Assembly (NCBI GenBank): GCA_003559235.1
Contig: PWME01000082.1
Span: 1-44,430, forward strand
From: Mollicutes bacterium
GTDB lineage: Bacteria > Bacillota_I > Bacilli_A > Izemoplasmatales > Izemoplasmataceae
DNA length: 44,430 nt
Reading direction: 5' to 3'
Each line of letters begins with the position of its first letter. Position 1 is the stretch's first letter. Both the position numbers and the translations under genes were made by a program. Positions 36,117 to 43,209 of this stretch are shown here, piece by piece. A model generated the notes under the pieces. The model ran no database searches and was not told where the DNA came from. It worked only from the letters and a program-made list of their open reading frames with translations.

Positions 36117-37034
36117 ATGAACTTTGTGTGCACATTAAACCAAAAACAGATTGATGCCATGCTAGCCTTTTACGGGCCCTACGTCAAACTCGCCGACGCA
36201 CAGCATATCATAGCGACCATTAAAACCGACCATGCAACCATCAGTATCTACAAATCTGGTAAAGTGATGTTTCAAGGTCGTGAAGCGGAGCGCGAGTTTT
36301 TGTATTGGGTGGATGTTTTTGCATTACCCGTTGACCAAGAAAGTCCAGAAGATGCGATTAAAGAAGACTTTTATACACCCTCCATTGGCAGTGATGAATC
36401 TGGGGTTGGCGATTACTTCGGACCGTTAACGGTATGCGCCGTTTATATAAGCAAACGCGATATGCCTCGCTTACGCACACTCAATATTCGTGACTCTAAA
36501 ACCATCTCGGATGCAGAAATCGTAAAGATTGCACCACAACTTGCCAAAACATTTCAATATTCATTACTCGTGTTAGAAAACGCAAAGTACAACGCATTAA
36601 CCGATAAAGGCTATAATGCCCATCAATTAAAAGCCTCAATGCATGCACAATGCCACAAACACCTCTTAGAAAAAATCCGCGAACAGCCAAAAATTATTGT
36701 GGATCAATTTTGTACGCGAGCGCATTACACCAAATACACCAAAAACATTCATGATGTCCCCCGCGTCGATAGATTTATAACCAAAGCCGAAACTTACTAC
36801 GCAAGTGTCGCAGCCGCAAGCATTATCGCTCGCTACAGTTTCTTATCACACATGCAACGCTTATCAGATGCGATTGGTGAGCCGCTCAAAAAAGGCGCGT
36901 CTGAAGCCGTCACCGAACAAGCCGCAAAACTTTTAAAACGCAAAGGCTCACAAGCACTTAGAAACATTGCCAAAATTCACTTTGCGACAACCGACAAAGC
37001 CCGCAACTTGTTAAAAACACCCGAACCTTCCTGA
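36117..37034 (+). CDS. rnhC: Ribonuclease HIII
   Basis: A 305-residue enzyme that removes RNA from RNA/DNA hybrids. An N-terminal TBP-like substrate domain (residues 1 to about 85) precedes the RNase H fold. The HIII signature GSDESGVGDYFGPL supplies the first Asp-Glu pair; RDSKTISD and IIVDQF give further acidic residues, and SVAAASIIARYSFL is conserved. The ATG at 36117 has AGGA upstream. It is one of the few plus-strand genes, divergent from mutS2. Its stop codon lies within the loop of the terminator. Confidence 0.95.
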   Translation: MNFVCTLNQKQIDAMLAFYGPYVKLADAQHIIATIKTDHATISIYKSGKVMFQGREAEREFLYWVDVFALPVDQESPEDAIKEDFYTPSIGSDESGVGDYFGPLTVCAVYISKRDMPRLRTLNIRDSKTISDAEIVKIAPQLAKTFQYSLLVLENAKYNALTDKGYNAHQLKASMHAQCHKHLLEKIREQPKIIVDQFCTRAHYTKYTKNIHDVPRVDRFITKAETYYASVAAASIIARYSFLSHMQRLSDAIGEPLKKGASEAVTEQAAKLLKRKGSQALRNIAKIHFATTDKARNLLKTPEPS

Positions 37035-37048
37035 CGTTCGGGTGTTTT
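37013..37048. terminator. Bidirectional terminator between rnhC and the flavin operon
   Basis: A perfect 10-bp stem ACACCCGAAC / GTTCGGGTGT (37017-37026 and 37036-37045) has AAAAA on one side and TTTT on the other. It contains the rnhC stop codon in its loop and touches the stop of the convergent gene. Confidence 0.9.
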
Positions 37049-37460
37049 ATTCATTAGGTTCACCTTTTAATGCGTCTTCAATCGCACGCAAATACGCAAC
37101 ACTCGACACCGTTGACCCTGCAACCACATCAACTTCATTAAGCTGTTCAGCGGCTTTTACATTCTCAAACAAATGGTAAGCCACTTCTTGCAGTCGAAGC
37201 GTATGATCTTCAACAATCACAATCTTTACGATTTCGCCATTCTCAACATGCACTTGCAGCGTTGAAGCCCAGCGATACCCATCGTAACTACCTTCATAAA
37301 TCCCATCGTCTAAATCAACAAAAACAATCGGTTCAAGCCGTGTTGCGACAACTTGAGTTTGCCCGCGCATTAAATAAAGCGCTAAACCACCAAGCACAAT
37401 GAGAATAACAGCCCCAAAAATCATCAAGGCCCCCACAATGCGCTTTGTGTTCTCATTCAC
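37047..37460 (-). CDS. Membrane-anchored FMN-binding domain protein
   Basis: A 137-residue protein with a single N-terminal membrane helix (about residues 8-30) and an extracytoplasmic FMN_bind domain: DDGIYEGSYDGYRW, LQVHVENGEIVKIVIVED, then DVVAGSTVSSVAYLRAIEDAL. The block D111-x-x-A-G-S-T117 resembles the Dxx(S/T)GAT motif whose threonine receives FMN from ApbE in NqrC, RnfG and similar proteins. Covalent flavinylation is therefore likely but not proven, and ApbE is not encoded here. Translation starts at a GTG that overlaps the flavodoxin stop (GTGA). It is the last gene of the 42979-37047 run. Confidence 0.87.
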   Translation of the reverse strand: MNENTKRIVGALMIFGAVILIVLGGLALYLMRGQTQVVATRLEPIVFVDLDDGIYEGSYDGYRWASTLQVHVENGEIVKIVIVEDHTLRLQEVAYHLFENVKAAEQLNEVDVVAGSTVSSVAYLRAIEDALKGEPNE

Positions 37461-37942
37461 AGCGTATCAACCGCTTCAATCAAACGTTTAATCGCTTGTT
37501 CATTGATTGTAGGTTCGCTAGCATCATCACGGTTTTTTTGAACCGCTCTAATAAGCCAACGTGTCAACGGTTTCATCCGCTCATAACGGAACTGCCCGCC
37601 AGTATGCAATACACGGGAGGCATGGTCTTGAATGTTTTTCGGCATAGAGATCTCAAGGACATCGTCTAAATTTTCTTCGGGCTCACCAGCACACACATAC
37701 ATAAGCAACGGTTTTTCAAGCAACCGTGATGCGTGGCGTTTCATAAAGCTGCGCATGTTTCGGTGCAATTTCCCAATATAAACACCCGCCCCTAAAACAA
37801 AGGCCTCCGCTTTCATGAGTTGTTCGTTTGTGCACGCTTTAACACTAACAACATCAAGCGACTGTTTACACGAATCTTTAAGACGCTTAGCGATGTCTTC
37901 GGTAACCCCGGTTTTCGTTGCATAAACCACTAATACATTCAT
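37457..37942 (-). CDS. Flavodoxin-domain protein (HemG-like type)
   Basis: A 161-residue cytoplasmic flavodoxin-like protein. The FMN phosphate loop is YATKTGVTEDIAKRL near the N terminus, and the following region VLGAGVYIGKLHRNMRSFMKRH resembles the flavodoxin_5/HemG group. The sequence MYVCAGEPEENLD corresponds to the second flavin loop. HemG activity (protoporphyrinogen oxidation) is possible, but nothing else of heme synthesis is here, so an electron carrier for the co-encoded FMN-binding membrane protein is an alternative. The ATG at 37942 is chosen as the family start. Confidence 0.87.
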   Translation of the reverse strand: MNVLVVYATKTGVTEDIAKRLKDSCKQSLDVVSVKACTNEQLMKAEAFVLGAGVYIGKLHRNMRSFMKRHASRLLEKPLLMYVCAGEPEENLDDVLEISMPKNIQDHASRVLHTGGQFRYERMKPLTRWLIRAVQKNRDDASEPTINEQAIKRLIEAVDTL

Positions 37943-37963
37943 CCTTGCCACCCCATTATCAAA

Positions 37964-38320
37964 TTAATGTTTCTTTAAGTAAGGATTCTTTCTTGTAATA
38001 ATGATACTATGATGCCCATTTTCTTCCTCTATTTTTGCATCATCAACAAGCGACCCAACAATTTCAAGTTCACTTTTTTGATCAAGGTCGCCAACCAATT
38101 GCCACCCATAGGTTTCTATTTCAATTTCACGCGCGCGGTTCAACTTCTCAAGCATCGTATTTTTGGTTTTTTCATCAAGTGTTTTAACCTTAACCCGAAA
38201 TGTCGTTAAGGTTTTTTCTTTATCGGTTTCAATCGAAAACTGTTCATACCCATGCAACATCAAAAACATACTAAGCTCACGAATGATTTTTGTAATAAGT
38301 TTGACTTCAGGTGTACTCAT
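37964..38320 (-). CDS. Small protein of unknown function, DUF1576-linked
   Basis: A 118-residue soluble, charged protein I do not recognise. It has a predicted helix (residues 5-22), then alternating strands (TLTTFRVKVKTLDEKT), a helix with LNRAREIEIETYGW and a final strand HSIIITRKNPYL. No cysteines, signal peptide or membrane segment are present. Its start overlaps the DUF1576 gene stop (ATGA) and GAGGAGG lies upstream, so the two are made together. It may be a cytoplasmic regulator of that membrane protein (inference). Confidence 0.75.
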   Translation of the reverse strand: MSTPEVKLITKIIRELSMFLMLHGYEQFSIETDKEKTLTTFRVKVKTLDEKTKNTMLEKLNRAREIEIETYGWQLVGDLDQKSELEIVGSLVDDAKIEEENGHHSIIITRKNPYLKKH

Positions 38321-39600
38321 ACGCCTTCGGCCTCCTCACCATTATTTTTACGCAGCGCTTCAAAAATTGGGACCAGTATTGCGGCCACAAATCCTGCCGC
38401 AAAACCATTATTGTATAAATCAAAACCGCCTTGAAACTGCAAAGTAAGTGGCAATAACATCACGTGAATAAAGCCTGCAAAGATGCCTAAGAAAACCCCG
38501 AATCGTCCCGCGATCGGTGCAACCGCCGTCACGAATAAAACCGCAATCGCAATGCCAACACCAACATCACCATCATTTGTCATGTATAGGATACCATACC
38601 AAAACGCTGCACCAAGCATAACAGGCACTGCATTTTTCGGATGCTTCCCAAAAGCTCCAAATCCCATTACCGTTAAAATACCACCCATGACAGCCCCGCT
38701 AATATCAATATTTAAGGCCACCACAAACAAAGCAGAAATAATCCCCATCACACCGACATTAATCATCGCGATATCCATACCATGATCACGCACAAAATCA
38801 CTTACAAGTCGCCCGGTGCTTTTAAGCAACTTCGGATACTTCTTTAATACCTGCGTATTGGCAATAAATCCCCACGCAATAAAAATCGCACTTAACACCA
38901 GCGTCAAAAAGAGTAATTCATTATGGAATGCTTCACTTGTTTCATCGGAGCGAAACGGTTCCAACTCAAAACCAAATACCATACCCAAAATCGCTGTATA
39001 AAGCATTGATAAAACACCCATCGCAAAGCCGATGTTGTATAAGTTATACCCTTTATGGAACCGAATGGTATGCGCACTAAACGCCGGTAAAATAAACCCC
39101 GTTAACATCCCAACCAAAATCCCCGCAGGAATTGAGGCGGCATAAGACCACCCCGTCCCAAAAATTAAAAAACTCACAATCGGGGAAATACCCGTTGAAA
39201 AGAGTACCACAATAATGAATGACTTGAACTCTAAGTTTTGCATCCTAGCGTACAAGTAAATACCAATGTAAATAGGAATCGTATTAAAAATGTTTTTCCC
39301 AAAAAACGAAAACCCAGCAATCGTTAATAGCCCTGCAAATATCGGGCCTGTCATCTTTAAACGGAGCACCTCTAGCATAACGATATTAATGAGCATAATC
39401 GACGCAACATTAAAAAGTGTTGCACCAAGCCCAGCAATATATAAGTAATCACTAATTAAAACGCCAGGACTTTGTAAAATTTCAAGATAACCTTCATAAA
39501 TATTTTGTGGACTATCCAAGACAAACGCCATCGCAAACATTACAAATAATGCCGTAATAATCGCAATCCGTTTTTTAAGGTACGCAAAGATTTTATGCAT
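38317..39600 (-). CDS. DUF1576 family membrane protein with internal duplication
   Basis: A 427-residue polytopic membrane protein with about ten to twelve hydrophobic segments. It recognisably belongs to the DUF1576 family, whose function is unknown. The two halves repeat: GFSFFGKNIFNTIPIYIG (96-113) and GFGAFGKHPKNAVPVMLG (313-330); GYNLYNIGFAMG (184-195) and GFDLYNNGFAAG (392-403). The offset is about 210 residues, so it arose by gene duplication, the hallmark of many channels and transporters with pseudo-two-fold symmetry. GGGAG precedes the ATG. Confidence 0.87.
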   Translation of the reverse strand: MHKIFAYLKKRIAIITALFVMFAMAFVLDSPQNIYEGYLEILQSPGVLISDYLYIAGLGATLFNVASIMLINIVMLEVLRLKMTGPIFAGLLTIAGFSFFGKNIFNTIPIYIGIYLYARMQNLEFKSFIIVVLFSTGISPIVSFLIFGTGWSYAASIPAGILVGMLTGFILPAFSAHTIRFHKGYNLYNIGFAMGVLSMLYTAILGMVFGFELEPFRSDETSEAFHNELLFLTLVLSAIFIAWGFIANTQVLKKYPKLLKSTGRLVSDFVRDHGMDIAMINVGVMGIISALFVVALNIDISGAVMGGILTVMGFGAFGKHPKNAVPVMLGAAFWYGILYMTNDGDVGVGIAIAVLFVTAVAPIAGRFGVFLGIFAGFIHVMLLPLTLQFQGGFDLYNNGFAAGFVAAILVPIFEALRKNNGEEAEGV

Positions 39601-39631
39601 GGTGCATGTCTCCCATCTAGTAGATTAAAGA

Positions 39632-41236
39632 TTAAAGCAACGTGAAAACAACCGTTAGTATAACGATATAAACAATAAACAAAAAATTGGCATGTTGAAA
39701 GACCAACGTAAATTTACGCAACGCACGAACCGGTGCATAATCTTTACGAATGAAAACATAATACACACCAAACGCAAGGGCGAGGGTAATACCATAATCC
39801 AAGACTGCGCGAAGATTAAACGGGTTTATATGCGTCATATTAACCCCAAATAACCCTTCAAGAATCGGTCTATAAAAAATCCCAAGCAACAAACACCCAA
39901 TCGCAAGCATCCCTAAACTAATGTTTTCTGGCCACTTACGCATCGGATAACTAACGGGTTTTTTCCCAAAAAACATCGTTGCCATTTTTACAAACAACGT
40001 CGCCGTCAATATATTAGACACAAACAAAACCCAATACTGCACTGTATCAAATCCATAAAAAATCGCCGATTTAGATATAAACCCATTGAGCATAGGCGCC
40101 CCTGTAATCGCAAGCATACCAATAATCATAAAAATACTCATCACTGGCAACGCCTTAAATACCCCATGTAACTGATCAACATTTTTCGTTTGGTAAACCT
40201 TAATAATGACCCCGGCACTCAAAAACAATAACGCTTTAAAAAGCGCATGGTTGAAAATATGATAAACCCCACCGGTAAAAACCAGTGCATTACTACTGCT
40301 TAACCCGATGATAATCAACCCAACTTGTGAAACCGTAGAATACGCAAGCATTTGTTTAAGGTCGCGTTGACTAATCGCAAAAATGATACCAACAAACGCG
40401 GTCACAACCCCAATCACAAAGAAAAACGAATCGATATGAAACGATGCATCTTCAAACATAGTGGTGATGCGAATAAACAAATAGACGCCACCCTTAACAA
40501 TCAATCCACTAAGCAGCGCACTAATCGGTGACTTCGCCGCACCGTGCGCTTTTGGTAACCATGTAAAGACAGGAAATAGTGCTGCTTTAACACTAATACC
40601 TGCCATCATTAACGTAAACGCAAACCGTACCGCACGTTCATCTTGTAAACCACCAACACCATCTTGGATGACATCGATGTTAATCGTTCCAAACGTATTG
40701 TATAAAAAGATAATCCCAATTAAAAACAACAATACACCGCTTGTATTTAAAAGCAAATAATACAGTCCGGCACGAAACGATTTGCCGGTTTTATTGTATG
40801 CGATTAAAATCGTCACAATAATCGTCGTTAATTCCACAAACACAAACATATTAAACAAGTCATTGGTTTGGATAATGCCGAAAAATACACCTTGTAAAAA
40901 CGTTAAATAAAACAACAAATTATAATCCGTTTTACGGGCATCAAACAAATAAATGAGCACTGCCCACCACACAAACAATGTCAAAAAGATAAATGCCATC
41001 GCAAGCGCATCAACGCGCAAACTAATCGCAATTTCTCTTCGCCAGCCGCCAAGTTCAATCACCGGTGCGCTAAATCCACTGCCCTCAAAATGCACAAAAA
41101 AGTATGCTATTGCGGCAACACTTAACACAGCTTGGGTCACAAAAACGAGCTTATTCACCCGCTGCGACTTAAATAAGTAAATAACCAATCCCGTCAAGAT
41201 TGGTGCGACAATAAGTAAAATCGGAATAAAAATCAT
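39632..41236 (-). CDS. Orphan antiporter-like (MrpD/NuoN-type) membrane subunit
   Basis: A 534-residue membrane protein of the Complex I / Mrp antiporter subunit family (proton_antipo_M), about 14 segments. Key ion-path residues are kept: Glu135 in FVFVELTTII, Lys217 in SVKAALFPVFTWLPKAH, then Lys229 and Lys248 (LIVKGG). In Mrp, group-4 hydrogenases and Complex I such a subunit lies among several others; here no MrpA, B, C, E, F or G homologue is adjacent. It may work with proteins encoded elsewhere or with DUF1576. The ATG at 41236 follows AAGGTG. Confidence 0.92.
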   Translation of the reverse strand: MIFIPILLIVAPILTGLVIYLFKSQRVNKLVFVTQAVLSVAAIAYFFVHFEGSGFSAPVIELGGWRREIAISLRVDALAMAFIFLTLFVWWAVLIYLFDARKTDYNLLFYLTFLQGVFFGIIQTNDLFNMFVFVELTTIIVTILIAYNKTGKSFRAGLYYLLLNTSGVLLFLIGIIFLYNTFGTINIDVIQDGVGGLQDERAVRFAFTLMMAGISVKAALFPVFTWLPKAHGAAKSPISALLSGLIVKGGVYLFIRITTMFEDASFHIDSFFFVIGVVTAFVGIIFAISQRDLKQMLAYSTVSQVGLIIIGLSSSNALVFTGGVYHIFNHALFKALLFLSAGVIIKVYQTKNVDQLHGVFKALPVMSIFMIIGMLAITGAPMLNGFISKSAIFYGFDTVQYWVLFVSNILTATLFVKMATMFFGKKPVSYPMRKWPENISLGMLAIGCLLLGIFYRPILEGLFGVNMTHINPFNLRAVLDYGITLALAFGVYYVFIRKDYAPVRALRKFTLVFQHANFLFIVYIVILTVVFTLL

Positions 41237-41306
41237 ATGAGACACCTTCTTAGCCGCAAATTCATCATGTCAATAATACACGATTAATCCTTGAAGCACA
41301 AGCACC

Positions 41307-42275
41307 CTATTCAGCATCTACTGCATAAATATGAACATAAACCGTTTGCTTAACATCATTCATCTCAACGGTGAAAGGATAATCTTCCCATGAAGATGAT
41401 GGGCTATTAAAATCTACATCAGACGTATCAAGACTGACTTTTCCGCACGCACTTAAATCTAAGTCATGATACGCACAAAAGCTTGATTTGAAAGCAGATT
41501 CAAACGATATGTGATTGTTCTCACCTTGATCAATATGCCGCAAATCCATCGGCACATCTGCATCAAACGGTTTCACACGGTCATCCCCTTTTGGCACAAC
41601 AGACAATGTCATAACCTCACTCAAACTTCCTGGAGGATTGGCATAATATTGCTTATTGGTCTCTTGATTGCGTAGCGCAGCACTAAAACGCACACGCACC
41701 TCACCAATCTCACCGGTGAAATCATCGAGAAACGTGATGACTGGTTGCATCGTATTAAGCGCATCATCACCATATATATACGCATAAAAAGCATCAAGCT
41801 CTCTAAGTAAATCCGCTTCATCAAACCCTATTTCACGGTATTCTATGCTTGAAGGAAATAGTGGGGTTTGCGGAATGCGCACAAAATACACATAAGCAGG
41901 CAACCGTTCAACGGTTAATGGCCCTTCAAAAAACATCTCAAAGTGTGTCATGGTTAACCCCTCACGATAAAAAAGATGAAAGGATTCATCATCACAATAG
42001 GCAACAAACGCCCCAATCGGCGTTTCCTCTAATAACGCGCGTTCATCACACGTCGCAAACATTTGATCATACACACGCCATTCATCAATCGTTTCAGCGC
42101 GGTAATATAAGGACCCATCGAAAATTTTCAACGTCCCAACCATAAAAAGGACACCCGCAACAACGACTAAAAGCGCGGCCAAAACACCACCGATAATCGG
42201 ATACTTTTTCCAGTTTATTTTTTGCGATGCGCGGCGCTTCTTTTTTGAAAGGTATCGTTTGCGCGATTTCGCCAC
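41307..42275 (-). CDS. Single-pass membrane protein with large outside domain, unknown function
   Basis: A 322-residue protein with a very basic cytoplasmic N terminus (residues 1-24, rich in Lys/Arg), one membrane helix (about 26-48) and an acidic extracytoplasmic domain of about 270 residues. That domain holds four cysteines in two pairs (76 and 94; 267 and 277), suitable for two disulfides. No family is recognised. Translation starts at a GTG with AGGGGG upstream, 61 bases inside the preceding gene in another frame. Confidence 0.75.
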   Translation of the reverse strand: MAKSRKRYLSKKKRRASQKINWKKYPIIGGVLAALLVVVAGVLFMVGTLKIFDGSLYYRAETIDEWRVYDQMFATCDERALLEETPIGAFVAYCDDESFHLFYREGLTMTHFEMFFEGPLTVERLPAYVYFVRIPQTPLFPSSIEYREIGFDEADLLRELDAFYAYIYGDDALNTMQPVITFLDDFTGEIGEVRVRFSAALRNQETNKQYYANPPGSLSEVMTLSVVPKGDDRVKPFDADVPMDLRHIDQGENNHISFESAFKSSFCAYHDLDLSACGKVSLDTSDVDFNSPSSSWEDYPFTVEMNDVKQTVYVHIYAVDAE

Positions 42276-42979
42276 GGCAATTCCCCCTTCATATGTCGCA
42301 TTTCAAAACGGAACATCGCAAGCAATGACCCAGCGAAAATTAAATACAGTGTCCCAACGAATTGATCAAACAACCCAAATATGAAAAACACAACAAACGG
42401 TATACCATATTTTACGATAATAACATGAATTGATTCAAGCCCTTTTATCGATAGGATACTCATAACAATCGATAGGATGAATAACCCAGCAATAACGACA
42501 TGTGCCATAGTACTAGACAAACCAATAAAATTGACCACAAACCCAAAGCCATAAAAGAAGGCCAAAAGCATAACTTGTAAAGGTTGAATCACATAAAAAC
42601 GGCGCGTTTTTTTATACGGTGTAATGCCACCTTGTTTTACCATGCGTCGTTCTAACCAAAACCAAAATGCTTGTGAAATGCCAAAAAGAATCGCAAATGA
42701 TCCTATGAGGAGTGTAGCCCCTTGATCGGCACCGATAAGCATAGCAATCAATAAAAAAGCAACAAATAAAAAAATCAACGCCCCAAAGCAATATTTAATG
42801 AGTTGCAGTTCGAAACTATCTAACCACGCAAACTGTACGGTCGCAATGCCAAGCCAAACCAATCCCAAAAAGAAAAACAATCCGAATAAATACGGGGAGT
42901 AAAAGATCAAGCCAACCATCAATCCAAGCAAGAAAAACTGGAGTGCTGGTGCTACCAATGTCAGCCGTTTTATCATCAT
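42215..42979 (-). CDS. Polytopic membrane protein of unknown function
   Basis: A 254-residue protein with about eight hydrophobic segments (for example FFLLGLMVGLIFYSPYLFG and VVIAGLFILSIVMSILS) and a basic cytoplasmic tail. A short positive loop between segments (RRMVKQGGITPYKKTRRFY) fits a positive-inside topology. No domain family is recognised. TTGGAGG precedes the ATG. It is the first gene of the seven-gene minus-strand run; a TACAAT-like -10 is seen upstream at about 43013-43018, but no good -35 accompanies it. Confidence 0.75.
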   Translation of the reverse strand: MMIKRLTLVAPALQFFLLGLMVGLIFYSPYLFGLFFFLGLVWLGIATVQFAWLDSFELQLIKYCFGALIFLFVAFLLIAMLIGADQGATLLIGSFAILFGISQAFWFWLERRMVKQGGITPYKKTRRFYVIQPLQVMLLAFFYGFGFVVNFIGLSSTMAHVVIAGLFILSIVMSILSIKGLESIHVIIVKYGIPFVVFFIFGLFDQFVGTLYLIFAGSLLAMFRFEMRHMKGELPWRNRANDTFQKRSAAHRKK

Positions 42980-43162: not shown

Positions 43163-43209
43163 AGCATCATGACATACATGTGGAAGATTTGTCATGATGC
43201 TTTGTTAAT
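43163..43209 (+). promoter_or_regulatory. Leader hairpin before nuoE
   Basis: A perfect 12-bp inverted repeat (43163-43174 with 43190-43201; arms AGCATCATGACA and TGTCATGATGCT) with a 15-base loop is followed by TTGTTAATTTT. It lies inside the leader between promoter and ribosome site, so it could be a leaky terminator/attenuator, an mRNA stabiliser or an operator. Confidence 0.65.

Follow-up and report, generated by a model that had tools for sequence, protein, structure and literature searches.

The window, the whole stretch of 44,430 nucleotides that was analysed, belongs to a 1.7-Mb genome in 261 contigs (90% complete) whose closest named relatives are Candidatus Izimaplasma MAGs. It contains a run of seven genes on the minus strand (42979-37047), which encode in this order A254, B322, an MrpD-type subunit, DUF1576, E118, Flavodoxin_5 and an FMN_bind protein. 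All seven ORFs listed in the first-pass annotation were confirmed (Table 1). The translational coupling it had proposed between the flavodoxin and the FMN_bind gene is visible as a 4-nt overlap (GTGA); the DUF1576 and E118 ORFs also share a 4-nt overlap (ATGA). The flavodoxin likely starts at the ATG at 37942, and the MrpD-like protein probably at the ATG at 41236, which gives 534 aa.

Table 1. Features of the seven-gene run, with positions in the window
Feature	Position	Strand	Basis
Probable terminator (inverted repeat and T-run) between the FMN_bind gene and the convergent rnhC	37010..37046	.	read in the sequence; terminator-like match 37030-37042
FMN_bind protein, 137 aa, N-terminal anchor, ApbE-type motif DVVAGST	37047..37460	-	PF04205, 1.9e-07
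Flavodoxin (Flavodoxin_5), cytosolic	37457..37951	-	PF12724, 3.1e-22; aligned with relatives
E118, small soluble partner of DUF1576, 118 aa	37964..38320	-	AlphaFold pLDDT 85.5
DUF1576 membrane protein, two homologous halves	38317..39600	-	PF07613 twice, 1.2e-99
Orphan MrpD-type antiporter-like subunit, 534 aa	39632..41236	-	PF00361 (Proton_antipo_M), 1.1e-60
B322, single TM segment near the N-terminus, without family, outside the conserved set, overlapping A254	41307..42275	-	
A254, membrane protein without family, outside the conserved set	42215..42979	-	several hydrophobic segments

Beyond the run, NuoE- and NuoF-like genes start divergently and run off the contig (43234-44430); they probably encode a module of a bifurcating hydrogenase or an NADH dehydrogenase. 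The divergent region before them (43163-43201) contains an inverted repeat whose 12-nt arms, AGCATCATGACA/TGTCATGATGCT, match perfectly and lie 15 nt apart. The core of this repeat is found once in the genome, and the repeat is possibly an operator.

Pfam gave nothing above the cut-off for A254, B322 or E118, and NCBIfam gave nothing for A254. No full-length relatives of A254 or B322 were found in 90 genomes of the order; A254 had weak partial matches in four other genomes and B322 a single one. Because these two proteins are without full-length relatives, the seven-gene order, which the first-pass annotation had suggested testing in related genomes, is unique to the genome of the window. A254 and B322 would represent two lineage-specific proteins.

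The third gene encodes an Mrp-type subunit that, as had been noted, is without its usual partners; no other Mrp gene lies within the run. The first-pass annotation had also raised the case of a separate full Mrp operon that accounts for this subunit. A standalone Mrp operon, with its own MrpD, is present on another contig (C125) in the order E-F-G-(A C-terminal)-B-C-D, where the subunits were assigned from order and resemblance. The window protein is 54% identical to the MrpD of this operon, but it sits in a separate clade. In a tree of 14 orphans (from 14 genomes) and 13 MrpDs from Mrp operons the two groups are split by a branch with a support of 100/99. The orphan clade is family-wide and includes members that have no DUF1576 gene nearby. 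Residues E138, K220, K251, K337 and K392 (numbering according to the alignment of the 537-aa ORF) are invariant in orphans and operon MrpDs, so that the ion-pathway residues are kept. In four loci of relatives (L038, L039, L042 and L043) the orphan MrpD is separated from DUF1576 by two membrane genes on the opposite strand (about 133-169 and 263-300 aa). The standalone Mrp operon in locus L034 (6822-11725) has one antiporter-like subunit and an Mbh-like order, and such operons occur in many genomes of the family.

The Mrp operon of the genome encodes a single antiporter-like subunit, and the solitary paralogue probably serves the Mrp antiporter, with which it would assemble, as an alternative or a second subunit for ion translocation. 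One explicit form of this idea is that the orphan supplies the second antiporter-like subunit that the Mrp complex is missing, taking the place of the N-terminal part of MrpA although it is encoded apart. The single antiporter-like subunit in the Mrp operons of these genomes, the presence of operon and orphan together in at least ten genomes, and the similarity to the operon MrpD with retention of the catalytic residues are all consistent with this explanation. However, an orphan of the MrpD clade was not found in two genomes that have the operon (G048 and G075), and single-antiporter modules such as Mbh function without a second antiporter-like subunit. We consider the explanation a tentative one, somewhat short of an even chance.

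The FMN_bind domain at the other end of the run scores 32 bits versus a Pfam cut-off of 22. Its DVVAGST, described earlier as close to the ApbE target motif, does align with the DxxSGAT of the orthologues. It fits the pattern D..(S/T/A)G(A)(T/S); the window copy has S at the A position, whereas most orthologues show the canonical SGAT. Each of the 16 members in the alignment matches FMN_bind and keeps D..[SAT][GE][AGS][TS]. The proposal that this protein sits outside the membrane is based on one N-terminal TM segment. In the orthologues the N-terminal side of this segment is the more positively charged, which favours a C-terminus outside, but in the window copy the charge is equivocal. In the flavodoxin sequence a TKTGVT phosphate-binding loop is visible.

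Small anchored FMN_bind proteins are found in many lineages among the 395 genomes of the class that were searched. Away from DUF1576, a flavodoxin adjoins FMN_bind, in either order, in about 26 of about 42 loci; this count is uncorrected for relatedness and misses at least one diverged flavodoxin, which was seen by eye in L244. The flavinylation papers covered by our literature search do not describe such a pair. As judged from sequence, the flavodoxin and the FMN_bind protein probably form a genuine, flavinylated redox pair. It is conceivable that the two proteins serve in flavin handling or stress defence, e.g. in the reduction of quinone-like compounds, and not in energy metabolism. The TetR or MarR genes that often accompany FMN_bind-flavodoxin loci in other lineages would fit such a role, as would the best NCBIfam match of the flavodoxin, which is HemG-like and far under the cut-off. 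The window copy, however, is without an adjacent regulator, and we regard a role of this kind as rather unlikely.

The apbE gene for which the first-pass annotation had suggested a search is present in the genome (contig C191; E 2.7e-45, 154 bits), where it adjoins the genes for an FMN_bind lipoprotein with DVIAGVT and for a NusG_II protein. Since Nqr-type and Rnf-type subunits are encoded elsewhere in the genome, ApbE would be expected even without the window protein; it likely has other substrates here, namely Nqr, Rnf and the lipoprotein FMN_bind. The presence of ApbE together with the canonical D..SGAT motifs in the orthologues makes flavinylation of the FMN_bind protein likely. In locus L035 the ApbE, FMN_bind lipoprotein (DVIAGVT) and NusG_II genes make up an EET-like set.

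From these data we infer a first module, in which a cytosolic flavodoxin is combined with an FMN_bind domain that would lie outside, anchored to the membrane. ApbE would covalently flavinylate the Thr of DVVAGST, and the FMN_bind domain would then pass electrons to an outside acceptor. Candidates for the transmembrane electron route are the Rnf, Nqr or EET-type (NusG_II/Gx) systems encoded elsewhere.

The internal duplication described for the DUF1576 protein is evident from a comparison of the two halves (29% identity, E 3.8e-28). Its AlphaFold model (pLDDT 86, pTM 0.87) had no fold match in the PDB below E 0.001, and a sequence search of the PDB also gave no match. The idea that DUF1576 is a urea-transporter-fold relative of NqrB/RnfD was discarded; the best fold comparison (UT-B) had a TM of about 0.33, and profile comparison revealed no relation to RnfD/NqrB. 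A literature search returned no paper that mentions the family. E118 is predicted to have a degenerate GHKL/HATPase-like fold. Foldseek matches of its model were consistently to histidine-kinase ATPase domains (best E 2e-3, TM about 0.5), HATPase_c matches were weak and limited to 2 of 54 members, and a sequence search of the PDB found nothing significant. By eye, none of the N, G1 and G2 ATP-binding motifs was seen in the alignment.

E118 adjoins DUF1576 on the same strand in 64 of the 80 genome_contigs loci and in 25 of the 30 class loci (both uncorrected for relatedness). Among the 14 further short loci that came from a phylum search, however, it lies beside DUF1576 in only 4 and is diverged or absent in the rest. 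An FMN_bind gene was found by profile search within 8 kb of DUF1576 in only 5 of the 80 loci, all from Izimaplasma (relatedness uncorrected); outside the Izimaplasma-type family the profiles used detected no FMN_bind or flavodoxin partner within this distance. ApbE occurs within 8 kb of DUF1576 in three loci (L089, L091 and L092). These were set aside as support for a link, as ApbE there belongs to a NusG_II and Gx set of the EET type without an adjacent FMN_bind gene. In Anaeroplasmataceae (L083, L085-L092 and L095) the DUF1576-E118 pair lies between genes for BacA/UppP and PAP2; hence a link to undecaprenyl phosphate handling is conceivable. Neighbours with DVLAGVS in this group, which had been considered as FMN_bind proteins, turned out to be PAP2 phosphatases. 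As a guess from architecture, the duplicated DUF1576 protein would probably act as a transporter or channel in the membrane, with E118 as its cytosolic, GHKL-like and probably non-ATP-binding regulator.

The genes of the run are neither wholly scattered nor wholly conserved in relatives, so the scattering of orthologues that had been considered is found only in part. The order DUF1576-E118-Fld-FMN_bind occurs in the window and in L042, L224 and L220, which represent four genera, and in two of these, the window and L224, MrpD directly precedes it. DUF1576-E118-FMN_bind is present in ten genomes in total, six of which are without Fld, while three loci of family members (L036, L037 and L041) carry only DUF1576-E118 at this position. 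Several loci duplicate one another, as the genome was retrieved by two routes, e.g. L057/L224 and L058/L042. The flanking genes rnhC, mutS2, trxA and truB are conserved equally; the shared gene order is therefore weak evidence. Beyond the two nearest families FMN_bind and DUF1576 co-occur 6 times versus about 2 expected (Fisher p 0.015, uncorrected for relatedness).

Taken together, we favour with some confidence the view that the interval is a mosaic of separable modules and not one complex. The DUF1576-E118 and FMN_bind-flavodoxin pairs come together only in certain genera of the Izimaplasma type, and the other genes of the run probably have functions of their own. The single membrane redox system proposed in the first-pass annotation receives partial support, from ApbE, the motif, the recurring FMN_bind-flavodoxin pair and the gene order kept in four genera. 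Counting against a mosaic are the like order of four genes in four genera and of five in two, the single strand and the 4-nt overlaps; this order and these overlaps could reflect real cooperation within the Izimaplasma-type family. We do not favour a joint, ion-coupled system, although it is possible. In such a system electrons would pass from the flavodoxin along a membrane path in DUF1576 to the flavinylated FMN_bind domain outside, and the MrpD paralogue would couple ion flow. The gene orders shared with L224, L042 and L220 and the ten genomes with DUF1576-E118-FMN_bind speak for it. On the other hand, the adjacent housekeeping genes are just as conserved, DUF1576-E118 occurs elsewhere without flavin genes and FMN_bind-Fld without DUF1576, and DUF1576 has neither an ApbE motif nor a profile resemblance to RnfD/NqrB. 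Nothing was found to indicate that DUF1576 or the MrpD paralogue carries electrons, and we judge the joint system improbable. Slightly less probable still is that flavinylated extracytosolic proteins have in DUF1576-E118 a membrane partner of a new class, which in Izimaplasma-type bacteria would act with a flavodoxin and the orphan MrpD in ion-coupled, flavin-based electron transfer.

The main value of the finding is that the modules can be told apart. Most worth pursuing are the pair of flavodoxin and flavinylated anchor, and DUF1576-E118, a membrane family none of whose relatives has a solved structure. The recurrence of the former without an obvious membrane carrier would raise the question of how electrons cross the membrane. 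The latter is widespread and unstudied and has a conserved small partner; a function found for it would therefore extend to many Firmicutes and Mollicutes-related lineages.

The modules can be compared with known systems. The MrpD-type subunit resembles Mrp in its PF00361 domain and the invariant Glu/Lys residues; it differs in that its gene is solitary, forms its own clade and lies apart from the Mrp operon. The DUF1576 protein is a full-length member of its family (PF07613) with two repeats and the E118 partner, whereas most other lineages showed neither a flavodoxin nor an FMN_bind gene near DUF1576. With subunit G/C of Rnf/Nqr the FMN_bind protein shares the domain, a single N-terminal anchor and the flavinylation motif. 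It is, however, shorter (137 aa), its matches to RnfG are weak (0.015 and 0.069), and neither RnfD/NqrB nor other Rnf/Nqr subunits are encoded next to it in the run. Finally, the FMN_bind domain is like the ApbE-flavinylated extracytosolic systems (PMC8238504; PMC11334425) in its probable position outside the membrane, in the D..(S/A)G.T motif and in the presence of ApbE in the genome. Five membrane electron carriers are known from these systems, i.e. NapH-, MsrQ-, PepSY-, DsbD- and RNF/NQR-like (PMC8238504). In contrast, none of the five is encoded beside the FMN_bind gene of the window, which neighbours the gene for a cytosolic Flavodoxin_5 partner.
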